From: Streptomyces sp. NRRL S-244
GTDB lineage: Bacteria > Actinomycetota > Actinomycetes > Streptomycetales > Streptomycetaceae
Direction: 5' to 3'
Assembly (NCBI RefSeq): GCF_000717915.1
Contig: NZ_JOCX01000014.1
Coordinates: 81,109 to 145,108 of the forward strand
Length of the DNA: 64,000 nucleotides
Shown here: positions 3,070-17,350 of the stretch, in pieces
Numbering within the stretch: position 1 is the first letter of the stretch
Layout: every line of letters starts with the position of its first letter
The notes under the pieces: model-generated
What the model was told of the DNA's origin: nothing
Databases searched by the model: none
What the model saw: the letters and a program-made list of their open reading frames with translations, nothing else
Position numbers and translations under genes: made by a program

Positions 3070-4191
3070 ATGAACGCCTCCCCCTCCGCTTCCCCCACGC
3101 GGTCGAACGGCCCCCTCCGCGTCGGTCTCATCGGTTACGGACTCGCCGGCTCCGTCTTCCACGCGCCGCTCGTCTCGGCCACCGAAGGGCTCGTCCTCGA
3201 CACGGTCGTCACCTCCGACCCCGGCCGGCAGGCCCAGGCGCGCGAGGCATACCCCGGCGTCCGGATCGTCGGCACGGCGCAGGAGCTCTGGGACCTCTCC
3301 CCCGCCCTCGACCTGGTCGTCATCGCCTCCCCCAACAAGACCCACGTCCCGCTCGCGGAGGCCGCGCTGGGCGCCGGCATCCCGGTCGTCGTGGACAAGC
3401 CGCTCGCCGCCACCGCCGCCGAGGCCCGCGAGCTCGCCGCCCTCGCCGACAAGACCGGCACGTTCCTGTCCGTGTTCCAGAACCGTCGCTGGGACAACGA
3501 CTTCCTCACCCTGCGCCGCCTCATCGCCGACGGCGAACTCGGCGAGATCCAGCGCTTCGAGTCCCGTTTCGAGCGCTGGCGCCCGCAGCTCAAGGGCGGC
3601 TGGCGCGAGTCCGGCGCCCCGGAGGAGATCGGCGGCCTGCTGTACGACCTCGGCAGCCACGTCGTCGACCAGGCGCTGGTGCTGTTCGGCCCGGCCGTAC
3701 GCGTGTACGCGGAGACCGACGTGCGCCGGCCCGGCGCCGAGGCGGACGACGACACCTTCATCGCCGTCACGCACGCGAACGGGGTCCGCTCCCACTTCTA
3801 CGTCAGCGCGACCACCGCGCAGCTGGGTCCGCGCTTCCGCGTCCTGGGCTCCCGGGCGGGCTACGTGAAGTACGGGCTCGACCCGCAGGAGGCGGCCCTG
3901 CGCGAGGGGCACCGGCCGGGCGTCGGAGACACCCCGTGGGGCGAGGAGCCCGAGCACCTGTGGGGCCGGGTGGGCTCCGGCGAGTCCCCGCTGACCGGCG
4001 GCGGAGCCCCGGTGCCGACCGTACCGGGGGACTACCCGGCGTACTACGCGGCGGTGGAGGCGGCTCTGCGCGAGGGCGGCCCGGCGCCGGTCACCGCGCA
4101 CGAGGCGGCGCAGTGCCTGGCGGTGCTGGAGGCGGCGCGGATCTCGTCCCGGGACGGGGTGACCGTCGAGCTGAGTGCCGCCATGTCCTGA
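3070..4191 (+). CDS. Gfo/Idh/MocA-family oxidoreductase
   Basis: A 373-residue NAD(P)-dependent oxidoreductase. The Rossmann fold begins with VGLIGYGLAGSVFHAP (about residues 18-33); the EKP-type motif appears as VVDKPLAAT, and the C-terminal substrate domain has GGLLYDLGSHVVDQAL with the catalytic-type His. Family members act on sugars, inositols or related polyols; the substrate is not readable. The ATG at 3070 has almost no ribosome site, so the message may be leaderless or start-proximal. Divergence from a ROK regulator suggests induction by a sugar. Confidence 0.9.
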   Translation: MNASPSASPTRSNGPLRVGLIGYGLAGSVFHAPLVSATEGLVLDTVVTSDPGRQAQAREAYPGVRIVGTAQELWDLSPALDLVVIASPNKTHVPLAEAALGAGIPVVVDKPLAATAAEARELAALADKTGTFLSVFQNRRWDNDFLTLRRLIADGELGEIQRFESRFERWRPQLKGGWRESGAPEEIGGLLYDLGSHVVDQALVLFGPAVRVYAETDVRRPGAEADDDTFIAVTHANGVRSHFYVSATTAQLGPRFRVLGSRAGYVKYGLDPQEAALREGHRPGVGDTPWGEEPEHLWGRVGSGESPLTGGGAPVPTVPGDYPAYYAAVEAALREGGPAPVTAHEAAQCLAVLEAARISSRDGVTVELSAAMS

Positions 4192-7660: not shown

Positions 7661-8479
7661 CTATCTCCTCAAGGTTCCCCAGACCACGAGCCGATATTTG
7701 GAGGTGTACTCGGGCGTGCAGGTGGTGAGCGTGATGTACGCGCCGGGCTCGGCGTACCCGTACTCCGGCCGGACCGTACTGCGCGGCACGGCCGCGATCA
7801 CCCCGGTGTCCCGCTCGCTGGTCTCCCCCATGGTCTTGCCGACCACATACGTGTACCGCTGCCCCCGTACGTCGACGATCAGCTCGTCCCCGGCCCGCAA
7901 CCGGTTGATGTACCGGAACGGCTCGCCGTGGGTGTTGCGGTGCCCGGCGAGCGCGAAGTTCCCCTGCGCCCCGGGCTGCGCGGTCCCGGGGTAGTGCCCG
8001 GCGTACCCCTTGTCCAGCACGGCCCGCTTGTCGACGCCCTGCGCGATGGGCACGACCACCCCGAGCCGCGGAATCCGCAGGACCCCGTACGCGGACTCCC
8101 GCGCGGGCGCCCTGGACGGCGAAGCGGAAGGCGGCAAGGAAGGCACCGGATCCACAGAGGAACCGGCCCCGGCCCCGGCCCCAGCCCCAGCCCCAGCCCC
8201 AGCCCCAGCCCCAGGATCGGGATCGGGATCGGAAGGAAGAGCCCCGGGCTCGGAAGGAAGAGCCCACTGCTCCTCCAACTCCCGAACCTCCTCCCGGGCG
8301 GAGGCCAGGGCCTGCCGATTGGTCCACCACACCTGGTGCACCACCAGCAACAACACCACCACGCCCACGGTGACGGCCAGTTCGGCGGCCCCCCACAGCA
8401 CCCCGGCGAGACCGGCTCGCCGCCCGCGCCGGCCGCCCCCCTGCACCACCACACGCATGTGATCCCGCACGGGCCGCAC
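7661..8479 (-). CDS. Class E sortase
   Basis: A 272-residue transpeptidase that joins LAxTG proteins to peptidoglycan. It has an N-terminal membrane helix (about 27-48), a coiled/charged stretch, a Gly-Ala dipeptide run and the sortase barrel with catalytic His180 (LAGHRNT), Cys254 (TLTTCTP) and Arg263. The GTG at 8479 has GGGGGAGG 7 bases upstream, better than the ATG at 8458. The Gly-Ala run is encoded by a tandem hexanucleotide (about 8166-8215). It is divergent from the SEC-C gene. A likely substrate is the LANTG protein at 4273-5487. Confidence 0.9.
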   Translation of the reverse strand: MRPVRDHMRVVVQGGGRRGRRAGLAGVLWGAAELAVTVGVVVLLLVVHQVWWTNRQALASAREEVRELEEQWALPSEPGALPSDPDPDPGAGAGAGAGAGAGAGAGSSVDPVPSLPPSASPSRAPARESAYGVLRIPRLGVVVPIAQGVDKRAVLDKGYAGHYPGTAQPGAQGNFALAGHRNTHGEPFRYINRLRAGDELIVDVRGQRYTYVVGKTMGETSERDTGVIAAVPRSTVRPEYGYAEPGAYITLTTCTPEYTSKYRLVVWGTLRR

Positions 8480-8525
8480 CTTAAGTCCTCCCCCGTCAAC
8501 AGACCAGGGCAGTACGGTGTGAACC

Positions 8526-9533
8526 ATGCGCCCTGACACGCCTGCCGAGCACATCGCCGAAGCCGAGCGCCTCATCCGCACGGCGACCCGTTACCCCGAG
8601 GACCAGGAGCCCCTGCTCCTCCAGGCCGCGGCCCACCTCGAACTGGGTGACGCCCGGGACCGCGCCAGCGCGCTGTACGACCAGCTCCTCGCCTCCTCAC
8701 CCGCCGATCCGCACCTGATCAAGGCACTCCAGGCGGCGAACCTGTGGGAGTACGGCCACGAGCCCGAGGCCCGCGCCCTCATCCAGGGCATCCGCGCGGC
8801 GGCGCCGGCGGACCCGGCCCCCTGGGAGGTCATCGCGGAAACCCTGGAAGCGCACGACGAGTTGACCGCCTCGGAGGAGTGCTTCACCGAGGCCGCCGGC
8901 CTCCTCATCACGGAGGACGCGCCCCTCACCCAGGCCACCACGGCCCTCCTGACGGGCCGCCACCGGGTCCGCCGCCTCCTCGGACTCCCGCACGACGAGT
9001 GGGACATGGTGGCCGACACCCGCCACATCGGCCCGATCCCGCTGGACGAGCTGCACGACCCCAAGCGCATCTGGGCCCTCGGCTCCGACGACCCGGCCGA
9101 GCTGCGCGCCGAGATCGCCCGCCTCCGCGCCGAACTGGGCGACCGCCGCGCCGCCCTCTCCCGCCCGTTCCCGGTGGCGATCCTGCACTGGCCCGCCCGC
9201 GAACTGGCCGAACTCCTCACCTCGTACCCCACCCTGGCGGCGGAGTACCCCTCGCACGAGGCCCACCTGGCGCACATCGAGTCCTCACTCCGCGCCCTGG
9301 CCGCCTCGGGCACCACGAACCTGGGCATCGTCACGGCCAGCGTCCCCTCCTACGAGGCCTTCGCGGCATCCGAGAAAACCTCCCCGGCCTCCCCGTCCCT
9401 CCTCCCGGAGTACGCGACGACCCTGGCCGCCCGAGGCAAAGCCACCCCCTGGCCCCCCACCCCCAACACCCCCTGCTGGTGCACCTCAGCCAAGCCCTAC
9501 GCCGAATGCCACGGGGAGTCCAGCGGCCGATGA
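8526..9533 (+). CDS. TPR-like protein with C-terminal SEC-C zinc motif
   Basis: A 335-residue protein. The first 130 residues are helical, TPR-like repeats (LLQAAAHLELGDARDRASALYDQLL); the middle is mixed; the last 20 residues carry CWCTSAKPYAECH, the SEC-C zinc-binding motif otherwise known at the C-terminus of SecA. The motif binds Zn2+ and often mediates protein contacts. The ATG at 8526 is 46 bases from the divergent sortase start. Its stop overlaps the NaeI-like gene start (ATGA). It is probably core rather than part of the restriction island. Confidence 0.8.
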   Translation: MRPDTPAEHIAEAERLIRTATRYPEDQEPLLLQAAAHLELGDARDRASALYDQLLASSPADPHLIKALQAANLWEYGHEPEARALIQGIRAAAPADPAPWEVIAETLEAHDELTASEECFTEAAGLLITEDAPLTQATTALLTGRHRVRRLLGLPHDEWDMVADTRHIGPIPLDELHDPKRIWALGSDDPAELRAEIARLRAELGDRRAALSRPFPVAILHWPARELAELLTSYPTLAAEYPSHEAHLAHIESSLRALAASGTTNLGIVTASVPSYEAFAASEKTSPASPSLLPEYATTLAARGKATPWPPTPNTPCWCTSAKPYAECHGESSGR

Positions 9534-10429
9534 GCAGGGGACGGCTCGTTCTGCAGGCGCCAGGGGAGGTCTGCGTCAATACGCTGGGCGGAGACCATGT
9601 CCTGCTGGCTGCGGAACAGGACTCCGAAATGATGGCCGTGCTGGACTGGCTCCGCCGGCGCGACGTTGCGGGGCTTTACACGGGGGCCATAGCCAACGCG
9701 GTCGATTACGTCCTCGATGGTCCGAGGACAGGCCGGTACGACCTGCTGGGATCCGATGTCCATCCAGGTGAAAAGGCCTCGGTAGGCGCCAAGCTGGAGT
9801 ACGAGGTGCTGCGGTCGTTCGGTCTCCCTAAGGAGCCGCCGCTCGACACCCTGATCGCCGGAGTGCCGGTCGACATCAAAGCGACGGTGGGCTCAAACTG
9901 GTCAATTCCAGCCGAAGCGCACTGCCGGATATGTATCTGCACGCAGATACAGCTCGGGAAGAGCAGGCACCGTTCCTGGCTGGTCCGCGCGCACCGCTCC
10001 TGGCTCTACCGCGGCGCTGGCAACCGCGACGGCAAGCGCGGACTCGCGGTCCATGCCCGCGACCACTGGAGCGTCCCGCTCTACGATTGGACCCCGCTGC
10101 CCGTTAATCCGCTGACGCTCCTCACTACGGAACAAGCGGCCCAGGTTCTGGCCCAGAAGCCGGGGCAGGAACCGCGGCTCACAATGATGTTCCAGTTCCT
10201 GGAAGGGCACATCATCCCGCGGAGCGTAATCTCGACGGTGGGCGCCGGAAAGCACGACCCTCTGAGGCGCGCCAGGAACGTGCGGGCCAGCCTGGAACGC
10301 GGCGGCCTTACTCTGCTCTGTGGCAAGTTCCCGCAACAGCGTGATCTGGCGGCGGCCCACAAGATCACACTGGGGCCGGAGGACTGGGTCGCCCTGCGGA
10401 TGGACGGAGAGCACGACGGTGCCGGATGA
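9530..10429 (+). CDS. NaeI-type type II restriction endonuclease
   Basis: A 299-residue protein matching NaeI (from memory of that sequence). The PD-(D/E)xK core is visible: Glu90 in GAKLEYEVLRSF, Asp106, Asp115 and Lys117 in IAGVPVDIKAT, with the same spacing as NaeI Glu70/Asp86/Asp95/Lys97, followed by WSIPAEAHCRICI. NaeI cleaves GCCGGC and needs two sites; the second half is a CAP-like DNA-binding domain. The position matching NaeI Leu43 appears to be Val61, so a nuclease rather than a topoisomerase is expected. The start overlaps the SEC-C stop (ATGA); the end overlaps vsr by 11 bases. Specificity for GCCGGC is inference. Confidence 0.88.
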   Translation: MSRGRLVLQAPGEVCVNTLGGDHVLLAAEQDSEMMAVLDWLRRRDVAGLYTGAIANAVDYVLDGPRTGRYDLLGSDVHPGEKASVGAKLEYEVLRSFGLPKEPPLDTLIAGVPVDIKATVGSNWSIPAEAHCRICICTQIQLGKSRHRSWLVRAHRSWLYRGAGNRDGKRGLAVHARDHWSVPLYDWTPLPVNPLTLLTTEQAAQVLAQKPGQEPRLTMMFQFLEGHIIPRSVISTVGAGKHDPLRRARNVRASLERGGLTLLCGKFPQQRDLAAAHKITLGPEDWVALRMDGEHDGAG

Positions 10430-10886
10430 GCCTGAGTGGCAGCCGCCCGAGGGTTCCTGGGCATCCTCGGCGGCTCGTCGGCGCAACATGCAGGCCATTC
10501 GGAGCCGTGATACCAAGCCCGAGAAGGTCATCCGGCGGCTCATTCACGCGAAGGGCCTGCGCTACAGGATCGCCACCCGCCCGCTGCCGGATCTCCGTCG
10601 CACGGCGGACCTCGTGTTCCGGCCGGCGAAGGTGGCCGTCTTCGTCGACGGCTGTTACTGGCACGGATGCCCAGAGCACTACGTGCCACCCCGGACGAAT
10701 CCGGGCTACTGGTCGGACAAAGTCGCCCGGAACATCGCCCGGGACCGTGATACGGATCAGAGACTGAGAGAGGCGGGCTGGCTCGTGCTCCGGTTCTGGG
10801 AGCACGAGGAGTCAGGCCTCTGTGCGACGAAAATCGCCGATGCCGTCCGGGAGCGCCGGGAACGCTCCCAGGACGGGAACGGCTAG
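10419..10886 (+). CDS. vsr: Very short patch repair endonuclease Vsr
   Basis: A 155-residue T:G mismatch nicking enzyme that corrects deaminated 5-methylcytosine. Family landmarks are all visible: the MQAIRSRDTKPE start region, the catalytic strand TADLVFRPAKVAVFVDGCYWHGC, the NIARDRD helix and GWLVLRFWEHE near the end. The GTG at 10419 overlaps the endonuclease gene, giving tight coupling. Its stop overlaps by 4 bases the stop of the convergent methyltransferase gene. Its presence fits a cytosine-5 methyltransferase whose product mutates by deamination. Confidence 0.93.
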   Translation: MPDEPEWQPPEGSWASSAARRRNMQAIRSRDTKPEKVIRRLIHAKGLRYRIATRPLPDLRRTADLVFRPAKVAVFVDGCYWHGCPEHYVPPRTNPGYWSDKVARNIARDRDTDQRLREAGWLVLRFWEHEESGLCATKIADAVRERRERSQDGNG

Positions 10887-12079
10887 CTGCTGGTCTGCCC
10901 CACAGGCCGCGCGGCGCGCAGCACCCTGGCAATGGACTCGCCGACGGCGCGGGCGACGGGCGGCGGGAACGCGTTACCCACCTGACGGTACTGGGCGGTC
11001 TTGCCCGGCAGCGGCTTCTCCGTCTTCTTGTCCCCGGCGAAGTCCCACTCTTCGGGGAAGCCCTGGATGATCGCAGCCTGGGTGACGGTGAGCATCGGGC
11101 CTTCGGGGCGGAAGAGGTCCCGGTCCCAACTTTCTTTCTGCTCCACCTCGCCGGGCGAGTTGGCGACGCCCATGGCGTTGACTCCGAGGACCTTCCATGC
11201 GGCCTTCGCGCGGCTCGGTCCGAGGTCGGCACCACCGTGCTTCTTGGAGCCGCCCACGAGGGTCGGGGCGATTCCGTCAGGCTGCCCTTCCCAGCGCACC
11301 AGGTATTTCTGCGCCTTGGCCCCCAGCGCGCCGCCCTTGTCCACGAAGTGCTGGAACCGTGCCCTCATCGACTCGTCGAGGGCAGCACGAACGGTGAATG
11401 CGCCCGGCTTCGCCACCGGCCACGCGAACTCCGTGTCTCCCAGCACGTCCGTCCGGATCGCGACAAGAATGGCCCGCGGACGCAGCTGCGGCACTCCGAA
11501 GTCGCTGGCTTCGAGAACCTCCCAGCCGCAGACCGTGTAGGAACCCTCGTACTTGACTTCCTCGCCCGTCTGCGGATCCTTGGCCAGACCGCCTTCGAGG
11601 CGCGCCACTACCCAGTCGCGGTAATCCTGGAACTTGTCGTCCTTGATTCCCCGGACGTTTTCAATCATGACCGCCTTCGGCTTGAGCTCGTCCACGAGTT
11701 CAAGCATGCGGGGGAAGAGGTCACGTTCGTCGTCCTTGCCCAGCTGCTTTCCCGCATGCGAGAAAGGCGGGCACGGAACGCCGCCCGCAAGAAGGTCAAG
11801 GTCGCCCTCACCGAGAGAGCCACCCAGAAACGCGATCGGCTTTTCCAGCTCGGCGAGCGGCTTAAATTCGTTGACATCCTTGTGAATGATGTCGCAGTAT
11901 TCTCGCTCGAATTCCCAGCCGTCCCGGCGATCAATGTTGCGCCGCAGCGTCGCGGCGGCGTACTGGTCGATCTCGACGAGCGCTAGGTGGCTGAAGCCAG
12001 CCTGGTGGAGGCCGATGGCCTGTCCCCCGGCTCCGGCGCAAATCTCAATCGAGGTCAGCGTGCGATCGCTGGCACCCAT
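10883..12079 (-). CDS. DNA cytosine-5 methyltransferase
   Basis: A 398-residue methyltransferase with the classical C5 order: motif I ICAGAGGQAIGL (13-24), motif IV GGVPCPPFS with catalytic Cys103, motif VI ENVRG (140-144), a variable target-recognition region, and motif X QVGNAFPPPVA near the end. It transfers methyl from SAM to C5 of cytosine and should protect host DNA from the NaeI-like enzyme. The ATG at 12079 follows AGGAGG by 5 bases. It is convergent with vsr. A 120-base gap separates it from the upstream ATPase gene, so it may have its own promoter, useful for early methylation. Confidence 0.93.
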   Translation of the reverse strand: MGASDRTLTSIEICAGAGGQAIGLHQAGFSHLALVEIDQYAAATLRRNIDRRDGWEFEREYCDIIHKDVNEFKPLAELEKPIAFLGGSLGEGDLDLLAGGVPCPPFSHAGKQLGKDDERDLFPRMLELVDELKPKAVMIENVRGIKDDKFQDYRDWVVARLEGGLAKDPQTGEEVKYEGSYTVCGWEVLEASDFGVPQLRPRAILVAIRTDVLGDTEFAWPVAKPGAFTVRAALDESMRARFQHFVDKGGALGAKAQKYLVRWEGQPDGIAPTLVGGSKKHGGADLGPSRAKAAWKVLGVNAMGVANSPGEVEQKESWDRDLFRPEGPMLTVTQAAIIQGFPEEWDFAGDKKTEKPLPGKTAQYRQVGNAFPPPVARAVGESIARVLRAARPVGQTSS

Positions 12080-12199
12080 CGAGTCCTCCTGGTGTGGCAG
12101 ATGCAGACAGGCAAGTGTCGCATCCGCCACCGACAGCGTGTTCCTTCCAGGCCCGGGCAGGCGCACAGCCTTCAGTGGAACACCTGCCCAGCAGCGGTC

Positions 12200-14041
12200 T
12201 CAGCAGGCCCGTGCCGTTCCCACGTGCTCCAGGAGGGCCCGTACGTCGGCCTCGTCCATGCCCGCTGTCACAGGCCCTTCCTCCTGTAGGTCACCCAGCT
12301 GCCGCACGGAAGGATCGTCAAGGATCGCCCCCATGAACTCAAGCTTTTCAGCGAGCCTGAGCGCGACCACTTCATCGATCGTGCCTGAGGACGCGAGCAC
12401 GGTCACTCGCGTCTGAGCATCCGGAGCCAGTCCCAGACGGTGGATGCGGTCCAGGCTCTGAAGGAACCGGCCCGCCATAAAATCCCGGTCGACGTAGACG
12501 GCGTCATGGCACTCATGGTGGAGGCTGATCCCTTCGCCCAGCGTGGCCGGGTTGGAGATCAGGACGCCGCAGGCCGGATCTGTCCTGAACCTGCGGATCT
12601 CCTGCTCCCTGTCCGTCGTTCCGCCATGGACGACCGCAGGCTGGAAATCCGTGAGGATGCGCTCCAGGCTGGTGATGTTACGTACGAACGTCGACCAAAC
12701 CAGCGTCTTCCGCCCAGCGGCCGCGTTCTTCGCAACGATGTCGCGGACTTCGAGGTACTTCGGTGGCACTTCGTGCTGGTGCAAGTTCTGCAGCAGCTTG
12801 AAGAGCGACTCCCCCTCGGGGATCTCCAGGGGTGGTACCTGGAAATTGAGGGGCTCATATTTGCTGCTTCCCTCGACCAGCAAGGCGGGGCTGGTGGCGG
12901 CCATGAGCAGCCTGAGCATCGCCTTCCCGAGACCGTCGAAGTCCTCACGGGACAATTCTGCCCGGGAGGTAAAGCGTCCCACGAGAGCGTCGTAGATCTC
13001 CCGGTGCAGCCCTTCCAGGGGCACGGTCCGGATGACCGGCTGGAAGGGCGGCAGCCCCAGTTCCTTCTTAGTGGTGCGCGTGAAGAGGGGCCGGAGCACG
13101 GAGCTGGCGTGCGCAAGGTCCCCGCCTGCCACGGCCTGGGTTACCACCCGGCGCCCGTGACCGGGCCACACGAACGACAGCAGGTTCTCCAGGTCGCGCG
13201 CACCGTTCGGGGCGGGCGTACCCGTGAGGATCAGCCGGCGGCGGCTGAGTGGGCCCAGAGCCATGCAGGCGCTCCCGTACGTGCCGTCGGAGCCGAGCTT
13301 CATCCGGTGGGCTTCATCCAGGATCACCATGGAAGGCGCCGCGCGCAGCCAGCCCGCGAGCCCGGTGAGAGAGCGCTCGAGCCGCTCGTAGTTGACGACC
13401 AGGATCTCAGTGTGCGGGTCCGGGGCCCGTCCCATGACCTTGGTCACCGGGGCCTCGTCGAAGCATGAGCCGCTCTCGTTGATCCACGACTCATAGGCGG
13501 ACTTCGGGCTGACGACCAGAAGCCTGCGGGCGTCGCCCTTCTCCTTCGCCGCCGCGTATACGGCGAGCCCGACGCGGGTCTTACCCGCCCCCGGGACGCT
13601 GAAGTTGGCGCCGTGGCGCATGGCTAGCAGCCGGGCGATATCCCTGCGCTGGAAACTCGTCAGATCTGCTCGCCAGCCCGCACCAAGACGGCCGACGAGA
13701 GACTCCGTGTCCACCCCTTCCGACGGCTCGGGGCTGTGCTCCAGGTAATCGGCTGCCTGATCCGCGTCGTCGAGGACGTCATTGACGAGGGTGAGGAGCT
13801 CCTCGTCCCACTCCACGGATTCGGCATGCGGCCAGTCCGACAGGACGTGGAGCCCCGACAGGAAATCGTCGAGAGGTACTTCCAGCATCAGTGGACCGCG
13901 CTGGCCGCCCACAGGGAACCCTGCTGCCAGGTGCGTCAGCTCCGCCCCGAACGGCTCAGCGGCGCGGAGGACGGCCTTGGTCCGGGTGACGTCGAGACCG
14001 AGCCTCAGCGACAGGTCACCCATCTCACCCAGCTCGGTCAC
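12200..14041 (-). CDS. SNF2-like DEAH ATPase of the restriction island
   Basis: A 613-residue superfamily 2 ATPase. The N-terminal 110 residues are of unknown type; the ATPase begins SFQRRDIARLL with Walker A VPGAGKT (149-155) and DEAH (242-245), then LTGTPAPNG (motif III). The helicase C lobe has HGGTTDREQEIRRF, SNPATLGEGISLHH and RIHRLG, typical of SNF2/RapA-like remodellers that move along duplex DNA. The GTG at 14041 overlaps the upstream ParB-like stop (GTGA), so the two proteins are made together. Its place between methyltransferase and ParB-like genes suggests a part in DNA surveillance. Confidence 0.88.
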   Translation of the reverse strand: MTELGEMGDLSLRLGLDVTRTKAVLRAAEPFGAELTHLAAGFPVGGQRGPLMLEVPLDDFLSGLHVLSDWPHAESVEWDEELLTLVNDVLDDADQAADYLEHSPEPSEGVDTESLVGRLGAGWRADLTSFQRRDIARLLAMRHGANFSVPGAGKTRVGLAVYAAAKEKGDARRLLVVSPKSAYESWINESGSCFDEAPVTKVMGRAPDPHTEILVVNYERLERSLTGLAGWLRAAPSMVILDEAHRMKLGSDGTYGSACMALGPLSRRRLILTGTPAPNGARDLENLLSFVWPGHGRRVVTQAVAGGDLAHASSVLRPLFTRTTKKELGLPPFQPVIRTVPLEGLHREIYDALVGRFTSRAELSREDFDGLGKAMLRLLMAATSPALLVEGSSKYEPLNFQVPPLEIPEGESLFKLLQNLHQHEVPPKYLEVRDIVAKNAAAGRKTLVWSTFVRNITSLERILTDFQPAVVHGGTTDREQEIRRFRTDPACGVLISNPATLGEGISLHHECHDAVYVDRDFMAGRFLQSLDRIHRLGLAPDAQTRVTVLASSGTIDEVVALRLAEKLEFMGAILDDPSVRQLGDLQEEGPVTAGMDEADVRALLEHVGTARAC

Positions 14042-15453
14042 GCCTGCTCCTGCCGCACGGCGGTAAGGAGCCACGCGACGCCCTCACCGTGCTCCTCAAT
14101 CCGCGCGGCCTCTCGGGCAAGCTTGAGGAGGCTGCTCTTGAGGGAGAGGAGGGCCTCGTCGAGGGTCTCCTCATCCAGGTTGCGCGAAGCACGGGCGAGC
14201 GTCATGTCCGTCACGCACTGATCGATGCTCTGGACGGCATCGTGGAGACGATCCGGAGCCGCCTGCTTCCGCTTACGCACACGGGCGTCCTTGCCCGCCG
14301 GCACCAGGGCTTCCTCCACCGCTTCCCGTGCCTGCTTCCACAGCGCGGCCGCTTGGTCGGACTGCTCCTGGGTCACCGTGTCCGGAGCCCGCTCCACCGC
14401 CTTGGCGCGCAGCAGCAAGTTGGTGAACTCCTTGGCCTCCGCCACCTGGGGGCTGTCGCCCCGCACGGCACGGTTCAGCCCCGGGATCACCCGGGCTTCC
14501 TGCGGCTGAGCGGGAACCTTCTGCAGTTCCTCCGACAGGTGGCGCTGGAGGTACCGGGTCCTAAAGTCCACGTCCGCGAGGCGGACATCAGTCTTGGAGA
14601 AGTCGAGCACGATCAGGGCGAGCTTGTTCTCCTTCAACAGGTCAGCCTGCGCCGGATTCTGCCGTGACGCCTTCGCGAAAGCCCGATGCACTTCCCTCAG
14701 TTTTTCCTGCTGGTCTTCGAAATCCATCAGTTTGAGTCCGGCCGGACCGTTCTTGGAACGGTTCACCAGGTCGTTGAGGGTGGCCAGAACCCATCGGTCC
14801 TGCTCCGCCGTCTCCGTCCGGATCCGGAACTCCTTCGCGATCTCGGCGATCGGCCGGCCTGCGGTGACCTGCTCCTCGATGGTGAGCAGCCGGTTGATGT
14901 ACGAGTACGGCCGGCGCGTGTCATGACGCAGCTGAAGGGACAGCTCGACGGCATTGATATCGGACCAGGTGCAGGACTCCGGGAGCACACCGACCCGGAC
15001 GCTCGGAACTCCGAGCTCGCGCAGGGCAGCTACCCGGGTGTTTCCGTTAACGAGAATGCCGTCACGCGTGATGAGCCCCGGCTCGTTCTGGCGGTACTCC
15101 TTGAGGCTGCTCATGAGCTCATCGAAGTCGCCGTCCCGCTTGGCCGGGTTCGAGGGCAGCGCCTTGAGCAAGTGGTCAAGGTAGGCCTGGCCGTCGGAGC
15201 CCCACGGGTTGGCCGTGAGCAGTCGGTCGCGCTCGGGGTCGAAGCTGCGCTGTGCCCGGATCCGGTGCGTGGAAGGGTTGAAGTACACCTGGTCGATGGG
15301 CATATCGATGACCTGCACCACCAGAGGCTTCGTCCGCCACTCGACCGTCAGCGTTTCCTGCAGTCCACCGCCGGCGCTGACTTCCTTGAGCCGCTTCTCC
15401 ACCAGTTCCTGGTTCTCAACGGCTCGGGGCGGCCGGCCGAAGTCCATGCTCAC
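14038..15453 (-). CDS. ParB-like N-terminal domain protein
   Basis: A 471-residue protein. Residues about 45-150 match the ParB/Srx fold: IDMPIDQVYFNP, a long insert, DFDELMSSLKEY, and ILVNGNTRVAALRELG (NGNTR at 136-140, the place of the GxRR box in ParB). A helix-turn-helix-like EIAKEFRIRTETAEQ follows at about 205-225. The C-terminal third is helical and charged. ParB-fold proteins can bind CTP or cut DNA; which applies is unknown. The GTG at 15453 follows GAAGGAG by 8 bases. It is translationally coupled to the SNF2 ATPase gene. Confidence 0.8.
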   Translation of the reverse strand: MSMDFGRPPRAVENQELVEKRLKEVSAGGGLQETLTVEWRTKPLVVQVIDMPIDQVYFNPSTHRIRAQRSFDPERDRLLTANPWGSDGQAYLDHLLKALPSNPAKRDGDFDELMSSLKEYRQNEPGLITRDGILVNGNTRVAALRELGVPSVRVGVLPESCTWSDINAVELSLQLRHDTRRPYSYINRLLTIEEQVTAGRPIAEIAKEFRIRTETAEQDRWVLATLNDLVNRSKNGPAGLKLMDFEDQQEKLREVHRAFAKASRQNPAQADLLKENKLALIVLDFSKTDVRLADVDFRTRYLQRHLSEELQKVPAQPQEARVIPGLNRAVRGDSPQVAEAKEFTNLLLRAKAVERAPDTVTQEQSDQAAALWKQAREAVEEALVPAGKDARVRKRKQAAPDRLHDAVQSIDQCVTDMTLARASRNLDEETLDEALLSLKSSLLKLAREAARIEEHGEGVAWLLTAVRQEQA

Positions 15454-15557
15454 GGGGTCTTCTCCTTCTCACTACAGGTCCATGGTGTGCGTGGGGCGAA
15501 GCGGGAGCCGGCGCATCGCGCCGGCCCCCCAAGTGTGCGCCTGCTGGTTGTGGCTGC

Positions 15558-16241
15558 TCAGGCGGGGGGAAGCGAGAGGGCTTCACGCACCTTGTTCCGG
15601 GCGTCCGCCGGCAACGTCCGGATCGCCGCCCACAAGTGCTCCACTTCTGCGAATTCCCTGGCGTCTGCCAGCATCCAGTCCGCGAGAGTCTTGCGGTCCA
15701 TGCTGCCGAGCCTGCCCAGGCGGGCCAGAACGTCGGGAAGGTCGGCCGTCAGCCCCCTGCCACCGACACGGCACCGATTGCATTCGGCCACGTGTTCCAC
15801 GACAAGGGTTCCGTCCGGCTGGAGCACGGGCCGCCGCGCGATGTCGAGCTGGGCCGACACGTAGGTCCCCGGGAAGGTCTCGCCCGACGTGATGCCGCAC
15901 GAGCGGCAGTGGTGCCCGTCACGCGCCAGAACCTCACGCCGCTGGGTGTCCGTGATGGACGCAGCCGGCCGCGTTCCCTTCCCGGGCTCCCACACCGGTT
16001 CGCCCTGCGCCACGAAACGCTGCTCGTGCTGGCCGAGCGTCAAGTCCTCGCGGTTGGTGTCGATCCGCCAGCCGAAGTCCCGCAGATCGCGCACCCTGCG
16101 GTCCGCCTGGCTCACCCCGGGGAACGCCTTCTTCACGTCTTCCTTCGTGAAGACGTTCCCCTCCCCCACCACAGCGACAAGCCACAGCCCGGCACGCTTC
16201 ATGGTGCCCAGCTTCTGGTCCGTCCAGGACGGAAGCCCCAT
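15558..16241 (-). CDS. wHTH plus Cys4 HNH-like protein
   Basis: A 227-residue protein. Residues about 10-75 look like a winged helix (VFTKEDVKKAFPGVSQADRRVRDLRDFGW). From about 95 it resembles a McrA-type HNH domain: TDTQRREVLARDGHHCRSCG with Cys112/Cys115 and ECNRC with Cys154/Cys157 forming a zinc site. The central strand that normally has HH or DH reads LDIARRP, so the catalytic His is missing or displaced. It may bind rather than cut DNA. The ATG at 16241 follows GAGGAG. It heads the four-gene strand ending in the methyltransferase. Confidence 0.72.
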   Translation of the reverse strand: MGLPSWTDQKLGTMKRAGLWLVAVVGEGNVFTKEDVKKAFPGVSQADRRVRDLRDFGWRIDTNREDLTLGQHEQRFVAQGEPVWEPGKGTRPAASITDTQRREVLARDGHHCRSCGITSGETFPGTYVSAQLDIARRPVLQPDGTLVVEHVAECNRCRVGGRGLTADLPDVLARLGRLGSMDRKTLADWMLADAREFAEVEHLWAAIRTLPADARNKVREALSLPPA

Positions 16242-16471
16242 TGCGCTCTCCTCGTTCCGTTGTTCCGATCCGCCTCAGAATCAGCCGCCCCGAGCCCGAG
16301 GTATCCCCCCACCAGCACTCTCAGCGGACGACGTAACTCTTGCCCAGCGGGGCACGGCAAAGCCAGCCTTCATCCGATTTCGAGGCCAGATGAAAACATC
16401 CGGCGGTTCACCTGACGGCCTTTTACCGTGAAACTTCGGAGAGGCTGTATCGACCGGGGGAGAATGGAGCT

Positions 16472-17350
16472 GTGGTGCCACGCAGGACGAGGAATTGGAA
16501 AGCGCTGTCACCGGAACTGTCCGATGAACACCGCGCGCTGGTGACGATGCTGCGCAGGGTCCGCGACTGCAGCGCGCGGACTCAGGCTCAGATCGCCCTG
16601 GACGGCCACATCGTGGCGACGACTCTCTCCAACCACCTCAACGGCGGACGGATCCCGGAAGAACCACAGGTCAAGGCATTCTTCAAGACGATCGAGCAGG
16701 AGTTGGAACGGACAGACAACGCGGCTGTGGAGCTCCCCTGTTCACTGAACGACCTTCTGGAACTGCGGCGGCTCGCCCGGATGCAGCACTGTCACTGCGT
16801 CCCGCACACCCGCAGCGCCAGTCCCGCTCCCGCAGTGGGTTGTGACGATTCGCCGGCTTCTCCGGTGTCAGGGCCAGAACCGGCCGCAAACGCCGTTTCA
16901 CCCCATTCCAGAACGCGACCGCTTCTTCCTCGTCTCACGAGACGGCGCCTGAGCTCCCGTTCCCGGGCCTTGTCCCGTGCTTCCGTGCTCGCCGCGTCGG
17001 CACGGAAGCAGGTGCCGGTCCCCCCTGAGAAGGGGGACCGGCCGCGCAAGGACTCCTCTCGTGCCACTTGGACCGAGCTGGAGACCTTGACCGCGTTCAT
17101 CTCAAGCGGCAGGGACCGCGACGCGGGACTGCTCTTGTGGCGCGCCGGAAGGACGCTTTCCACGCCCGAACTCATCGACGCCGTCGACTCCTGCCGGGCT
17201 GCCGGGCTCCACGAGGCCGCCGAATCCGTGCTCTCGGGTGTGAGCGAACGCGTGGACCGGCAGGCCGTGTTGAACATCACCGCCGCATTCCAGCGTGCCG
17301 GCAGACATGAGGACGTCGGTTTCCTGCTGGCGGCCGCCGTTCAGCAGTAG
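16472..17350 (+). CDS. Helix-turn-helix protein, Streptomyces type
   Basis: A 292-residue protein. The N-terminus (about 15-65) has an XRE-like helix-turn-helix (RTQAQIALDGHIVATTLSNHLNGGRIP). A low-complexity, basic Ser/Arg/Pro middle follows, and the last 80 residues form a helical domain with an alternating AGLHEAAESVLSG / AGRHEDVGFLL pattern. Proteins of this plan are common as unassigned regulators in Streptomyces. The GTG at 16472 follows GGGGGAG. It is divergent from the HNH-like gene (230-base gap) and its stop overlaps the DUF559-type gene by 10 bases. Confidence 0.7.
   Translation: MVPRRTRNWKALSPELSDEHRALVTMLRRVRDCSARTQAQIALDGHIVATTLSNHLNGGRIPEEPQVKAFFKTIEQELERTDNAAVELPCSLNDLLELRRLARMQHCHCVPHTRSASPAPAVGCDDSPASPVSGPEPAANAVSPHSRTRPLLPRLTRRRLSSRSRALSRASVLAASARKQVPVPPEKGDRPRKDSSRATWTELETLTAFISSGRDRDAGLLLWRAGRTLSTPELIDAVDSCRAAGLHEAAESVLSGVSERVDRQAVLNITAAFQRAGRHEDVGFLLAAAVQQ

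Follow-up and report, generated by a model that had tools for sequence, protein, structure and literature searches.

CglI and NgoAVII are restriction systems in which a methyltransferase and a separate nuclease are accompanied by a helicase-like ATPase, and the accessible parts of the reports on them describe ATP hydrolysis with a proposed translocation and communication along DNA (PMC5737866, PMC4267653). A similar set of parts is found in the stretch studied here, a 64,000-nucleotide segment of Streptomyces sp. NRRL S-244 (contig NZ_JOCX01000014.1, positions 81,109 to 145,108; called here the window), where seven genes within 7.8 kb form an island with limits at 9,517 and 17,363 of the window. 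By analogy, and within the accessible part of PMC5737866, CglI is probably the closest earlier example of a motor among small systems based on a methyltransferase. In the same portions of these reports, CglI and NgoAVII have one DEAD-family ATPase and an R protein, and no ParB-fold or HNH-derived protein is named, whereas islands of the present type combine a SNF2 ATPase and a ParB-fold protein with nucleases of the NaeI, NgoMIV, NOV_C or MutH type. We place about even confidence in reading the island as a restriction-modification system organised around a conserved motor-clamp module (a ParB-fold protein, a SNF2 ATPase, a degenerate winged helix-turn-helix (HTH) HNH protein and a regulator), together with a C5 cytosine methyltransferase, a Vsr protein and an exchangeable endonuclease, of the NaeI type here. 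The module recurs widely and, in our best reading, would be a portable, energy-dependent device that makes ordinary type II restriction motor-driven.

The nearest published gene neighbourhoods are those of the MORC/paraMORC operons, in which a cytosine methylase, Vsr, a SWI2/SNF2 ATPase and HNH or other nucleases form conserved neighbourhoods (Iyer 2008, PMC2292703), and those of the HEF_HK/Response_reg_2 systems, which are similar (Bellieny-Rabelo 2021, PMC8011034); as far as the available sections of both papers go, these operons are defined by GHKL-type proteins. None of the seven island proteins has a Pfam match to a GHKL family, and no GHKL profile matched between positions 4,001 and 22,000 of the window. 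The string "parb" does not occur in the main text of PMC2292703 (2008), and the available sections of PMC8011034 (2021) mention ParBc (PF02195) only among the nuclease domains of the neighbourhood. DISARM, Dpd and Zorya show only distant SNF2 similarity, to DrmD, DpdE and ZorD: the island SNF2 protein scored 28.9, 28.3 and 13.7 bits, respectively, against NCBIfam models with cut-offs of 610, 500 and 1500. No DrmB or DrmC model of DISARM is among the PADLOC matches listed for the seven proteins at an E-value of 0.1 (for the methyltransferase, the best 25 of 60). The best PADLOC model for the methyltransferase is DruM2 (352.8 bits), the C5 methyltransferase DruM of Druantia, and no other Druantia model is among the matches listed for the other island proteins.

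NaeI restriction-modification, which is of type IIE, likewise comprises a NaeI-family endonuclease and a C5 methyltransferase; the island differs from it by the additional motor-clamp module and by an endonuclease that is not the same from locus to locus. The established roles of ParB-type clamps are in chromosome segregation and gene control. Compared with the CTP clamps ParB, KorB and Noc, the island protein differs in having a SNF2 motor and restriction genes as neighbours, its Box II reads GNTR, and its nucleotide binding is a predicted property. In the part of the open-access PMC literature that was covered, we found no description of a ParB clamp and SNF2 engine with variable endonucleases. 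Such an engine appears to be undescribed, although all its parts belong to families or folds already described, and restriction that consumes energy has precedents. The recurrence of the motor-clamp pair with differing restriction systems suggests an undescribed energy-driven form of restriction; if this is true, a ParB-type clamp would be placed at the heart of immunity, and the association of simple type II enzymes with a motor would be explained.

The plus strand of the island starts with a NaeI-type restriction endonuclease of 299 residues (9,530-10,429), followed by a Vsr-family very-short-patch-repair endonuclease of 155 residues (10,419-10,886), whose probable GTG start at 10,419 was chosen by inference. 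The minus strand carries the C5 cytosine DNA methyltransferase (398 residues, 10,883-12,079), the SNF2-family ATPase (613 residues, 12,200-14,041), the ParB-fold protein (471 residues, 14,038-15,453) and the winged-helix protein with a putative degenerate HNH of the zinc Cys4 type (227 residues, 15,558-16,241), from which a putative HTH-type regulator diverges on the plus strand (292 residues, 16,472-17,350). An earlier note on this DNA had described a unit from 9,530 to 16,241; its gene set stands, and its extent has to be corrected, since the island reaches 17,363 and includes the regulator as a seventh gene. The overlaps recorded there, between endonuclease and vsr, between vsr and methyltransferase (stop to stop, the four bases CTAG at 10,883-10,886 being common to both stop codons) and between the SNF2 and ParB-like genes (14,038-14,041, where the SNF2 GTG overlaps the ParB-like TGA), are all present in the sequence.

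The identities first given to the NaeI, Vsr and methyltransferase proteins all hold above the family cut-offs. The endonuclease scored 120.5 bits with PF09126 (cut-off 25) and could be aligned to the solved structure 1ev7 (E 9e-13) over residues 8-234 of the chain, both the DxK motif and an upstream Glu being in register. The Vsr protein scored 130.7 bits with TIGR00632 (cut-off 97.85), its DGCxWH and RD columns being kept at at least 95% in 106 aligned copies, and the methyltransferase scored 167.8 bits with PF00145 (cut-off 22). A topoisomerase-like variant of NaeI was also considered and rejected: position 43, which we take to be Lys in the topoisomerase mutant (a reference title names NaeI-43K), aligns with Val here by a hand count in the 1ev7 alignment.

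The SNF2 protein scored 56.1 bits with PF00176 (cut-off 24.9), and helicase motifs I, II and VI are intact in 108 of 108 proteins, window included, with motif III present as TGTP in 104 of them. Regarding the ParB-like protein, Pfam gave no match above cut-off and PADLOC a single 14.7-bit methyltransferase match, so that its assignment comes from the fold of the predicted model. In this model the protein is predicted to fold like the CTP-binding ParB and KorB, the N-terminal nucleotide-binding domain included, with ParB/KorB-like nucleotide-binding and HTH domains at about residues 34-307 followed by a helical C-terminal part. Of 114 ParB-like proteins, that of the window among them, 109 have the arginine of the Box II P-motif within a [DN]GNxR pattern, and N138 and R140 are kept at at least 90% in a 12-row alignment (A3), one row of which, L103, was misplaced with SNF2-frame coordinates and is disregarded. 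It should be noted that, according to the accessible part of a survey, the nucleotide is not reliably predictable from the sequence of a ParB fold (PMC12704722).

To follow the module in other genomes, loci were sampled by the ParB-like gene alone. A scan of species genomes gave 201 stretches, of which 170 were confirmed and the best 80 kept, a selection that favours nearer relatives, and 150 Streptomyces genomes gave 28 ParB-like matches in 27 genomes (window included; two weak, G030 and G126). The best 80 and the 27 non-window Streptomyces matches make up 107 loci with 102 distinct ParB-like proteins, in which a gene was scored as present when its profile matched within 10.5 kb (the NaeI profile being built on aligned domains only). 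A phylum-wide search of 198 genomes found the ParB-like gene in the window and in one further genome (G087) only, so that sampling beyond Streptomyces relies on the species-genome scan and on plasmid records. The ParB-like and SNF2 genes are adjacent on one strand in all 107 loci. The HNH-like gene is present in 105, being absent from the two weak matches, and in 101 it lies immediately upstream of the pair in the same orientation. A C5 methyltransferase was found in 104 loci, the misses being L024 and L050, at contig ends, and L037 (Crossiella), with full flanks; Vsr was found in 103, being absent from these three and from L105, at a contig start. The earlier note had proposed that the SNF2, ParB-like and HNH-like proteins are dedicated extra parts, and had suggested testing whether the trio recurs beside other C5 methyltransferases. 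These methyltransferase counts bear out the proposal and show the recurrence, and the opposite outcome, a trio found mostly without a methyltransferase, was examined and is not what the loci show.

By contrast, the endonuclease varies: NaeI is found in 33 loci, a NOV_C nuclease in 30 and NgoMIV in 8, four loci having two, so that at least one of the three is present in 67 of the 107 and none in 40, and its type changed repeatedly on the tree. Given these 40 loci, NaeI cannot be counted as a fixed part. A GHKL gene lies within 10.5 kb in 24 of the 107. In the 150 Streptomyces genomes, Vsr lies within 10.5 kb of 27 of the 28 ParB-like matches, where about 0.05 would be expected for a mean genome of 8.5 Mb, and the single match without it sits 2.8 kb from a contig start; this association is far above chance. 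In the reverse direction, a ParB-like gene is near only 29 of 119 Vsr matches, which argues that the module depends on a setting of Vsr and methyltransferase and not the reverse. The smallest islands come from the 33 barest loci, some of them on short contigs: in eight (L051, L052, L054, L063, L073, L079, L097 and L101) the next gene recognised beyond Vsr or the methyltransferase, at a distance of 82-772 bp, is the TPR/SEC-C gene that borders the island in the window, and the gap is below 460 bp in six. Vsr is the only nuclease recognised there, the Pfam scans having reached the far side of the regulator in some of the loci at most.

The ParB-SNF2 pair is not confined to Actinomycetota, and its association with differing restriction systems spans at least three bacterial phyla. 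Relatives were found on eight plasmid records, with the two genes adjacent in all eight, and a search with the Rhizobium ParB-like protein returned 473 proteins at E ≤1e-5. Six of the eight plasmids (Rhizobium, Mesorhizobium, Kozakia, Azospirillum and two much alike Lactiplantibacillus) carry a C5 methyltransferase, five of these six with an annotated Vsr. On the Paracoccus plasmid the pair stands beside an N4/N6 methyltransferase and a BglII-like gene just under the cut-off (25.2 against 26), with no Vsr profile match in the stretch, and no DNA methyltransferase is annotated within the 40 kb read of the S. albidoflavus plasmid. DUF3883/NOV_C follows SNF2 in six of the eight (in Mesorhizobium with an insertion sequence between). 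In one Lactiplantibacillus locus (L123), the next gene is annotated as MutH/Sau3AI family (MutH 25.7 bits, cut-off 23) and the SNF2 protein carries an N-terminal PLD domain (29.5 bits, cut-off 27); this MutH and PLD scan covered L123 and not the twin gene in L122. In four alphaproteobacterial loci, a different, conserved protein of about 280-320 residues replaces the HNH-like protein upstream of ParB (L110 7,030-7,896, L111 7,084-7,929, L112 599-1,558 and L113 7,042-7,884; P0121-P0124), with no Pfam match in the two of the four that were scanned. No relative matched in phage records, and none of 29 pattern matches in viral contigs was a relative. The alphaproteobacterial version is complete on the small Kozakia baliensis plasmid pKB14400_4 (18,625 bp; L112/L120), where genes for ParB, SNF2, DUF3883, Vsr, the C5 methyltransferase and a GIY-YIG nuclease accompany those for plasmid replication and partition. 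Such systems may hinder genetic manipulation of industrial Streptomyces, since the ParB-like gene was found in 27 of the 150 Streptomyces genomes (a count that includes the window and the two weak matches) and also occurs on plasmids in Pseudomonadota and Bacillota.

The HNH-like protein is unlikely to be a nuclease. Pfam gave no HNH match for it, only a sub-threshold winged-helix match (16.2 bits, cut-off 21.3), and PADLOC gave no match of any kind. The column of the catalytic histidine holds Arg or Lys in 106 of 106 copies and Leu in two further ones (L054 and L091). A role as the cutter was thus rejected, because the catalytic histidine of this putative degenerate HNH is lost. The winged helix-HNH paralogues that stand beside a second C5 methyltransferase keep this histidine in seven of eight (loci L007, L008, L016, L017, L019, L021, L025 and L083); together with that methyltransferase, they possibly form a separate small restriction system akin to the ancestor of the trio protein. 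In L103-L106, the HNH-like gene is separated from ParB-SNF2 and immediately precedes the C5 methyltransferase gene, both having one orientation.

We also compared the distances of the proteins over 89 loci. Correlations with the ParB-like protein were 0.89 for SNF2, 0.74 for the HNH-like protein and 0.55 for the methyltransferase. Beyond the ParB-like protein, SNF2 kept a partial correlation of 0.32 with the methyltransferase, reached by none of 500 permutations, whereas the HNH-like protein kept 0.01, reached by 192 of 500. Being Mantel-type tests on related sequences, these values are suggestive only; they would favour a link between motor and modification. The idea that the HNH-like protein is a reader matching the methyltransferase is unsupported and a specificity link disfavoured, since its distances do not track those of the methyltransferase beyond the ParB-like protein.

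From the observed recurrence, the exchange of endonucleases, the predicted folds and the kept or lost active sites, the following course may be proposed. As expected from the known families, the methyltransferase would mark host sites and Vsr would repair the T:G mismatches arising from 5-methylcytosine. The ParB-fold protein, to judge by its fold, would bind a nucleotide and load on DNA as a clamp, assisted by the winged-helix/dead-HNH protein as a DNA reader. Starting from the clamp, the SNF2 motor would then translocate along the DNA or remodel it at the cost of ATP, which would allow distant unmodified sites to be scanned for or brought together, and its action would license or guide cleavage by whichever nuclease is present. 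In islands without a separate endonuclease, Vsr may be the cutter, which is the weakest step. For both NaeI and NgoMIV the action involves two recognition sites, and a site-gathering motor would therefore suit them. In its most general form, the proposal is of a class of restriction system driven by a portable engine, made up of a SNF2 motor and a ParB-type sliding clamp that is gated by a nucleotide. Any type II endonuclease and methyltransferase joined to this engine would become an immune machine that scans DNA at the expense of energy, and an HNH restriction enzyme that has lost its activity would be reused as the DNA reader; we advance this tentatively, as possible rather than probable. 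If it is true, the engine would correspond in function to the MORC-like GHKL ATPases of the related restriction operons. With NaeI, NgoMIV, NOV_C and MutH-type nucleases beside one engine, the coupling of motor and endonuclease is directly testable.

A somewhat unlikely alternative is that the trio, the methyltransferase and Vsr already make up a complete ATP-dependent restriction system, cutting through Vsr or an unrecognised part, while NaeI is an independent second layer that shares the mark and is uncoupled from the motor. The 40 loci devoid of NaeI, NgoMIV and NOV_C are what it would predict, as are the eight minimal islands, six of whose gaps are too short for the endonucleases seen. It accounts less well for the presence of one of the three in the other 67 loci and for the repeated switching of type; moreover, the Vsr proteins are ordinary in sequence, and the bare loci may have an endonuclease beyond the regulator or of an unrecognised family. 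The nearly constant company of Vsr is also what would be expected if the trio served very-short-patch repair, with clamp and motor assisting Vsr at T:G mismatches in place of MutL and UvrD where the genome lacks MutL. The window's genome indeed has no match to the MutL family PF01119, and an interplay of MutL and Vsr is mentioned in the accessible text of PMC2292703. We nevertheless judge this improbable, as 90 of the 119 Streptomyces Vsr matches have no ParB-like gene within 10.5 kb, the Paracoccus pair stands beside an N4/N6 methyltransferase in a stretch without a Vsr match, and Alphaproteobacteria do have MutL, the control Caulobacter matching PF01119.

Some ParB-fold clamps, such as KorB and VirB, can regulate genes, as stated in the accessible part of PMC12704722, and the divergent HTH-type gene belongs to the unit. 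Both facts would fit an accessory role in which the ParB-like, HNH-like and HTH proteins control the expression of methyltransferase and endonuclease and SNF2 acts on transcription in the manner of RapA. Such a role is very unlikely in our view, for it leaves unexplained the recurrence of the pair with different endonucleases, the SNF2-PLD fusion of L123 and a motor intact in every one of the 108 proteins. Least credible of all, and already disfavoured, is that unrelated defence genes were merely co-located in a hot spot. The TPR/SEC-C site does hold other defence-type genes in relatives, but gene order and tight spacing persist where no TPR/SEC-C gene is near and across three phyla; ParB and SNF2 stand side by side in every one of the 107 loci, and in 101 the HNH-like gene directly precedes them.

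This site is a TPR/SEC-C core gene outside the system (8,526-9,533, plus strand), present in 34 of 41 Streptomyces genomes searched and near the ParB-like gene in 26 of the 107 loci. Two close relatives (G038 and G012) have both flanks in common with the window and lack the ParB-like gene, their blastn alignments stopping at 9,517/17,363 (L117) and 9,514/17,362 (L118), which confirms the insertion between core genes proposed in the earlier note. Between the same flanks they carry instead a GmrSD-type protein (PF03235, 108 bits, cut-off 33.2) and a PLD-helicase protein (PLDc_2, ResIII, DUF3427), and in a third genome (G039), whose other flank is inverted, a lone Vsr adjoins the TPR/SEC-C gene. 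The comparison of these three genomes shows that the site takes up differing restriction-type genes in Streptomyces and that the regulator, which lies between the shared breakpoints, is part of the cargo. No Pfam family scored above cut-off for the regulator, and its HTH label is a probable one taken from a reading of its sequence and from how the corresponding gene on a plasmid is annotated. In 100 of the 107 loci there is a match to one of two regulator profiles. A search for operators between the divergent genes (16,235-16,475) revealed no repeats. Taken in 1-kb segments, the G+C content of the island is 0.63-0.69, lower than in its surroundings, where most segments of the nearer flanks have 0.70-0.77. 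The start of NaeI lies within the TPR/SEC-C stop codon (ATGA), and the endonuclease may thus be translationally coupled to the host gene. A gene that, by reading only, is sortase-like adjoins the island on the minus strand (7,661-8,581).

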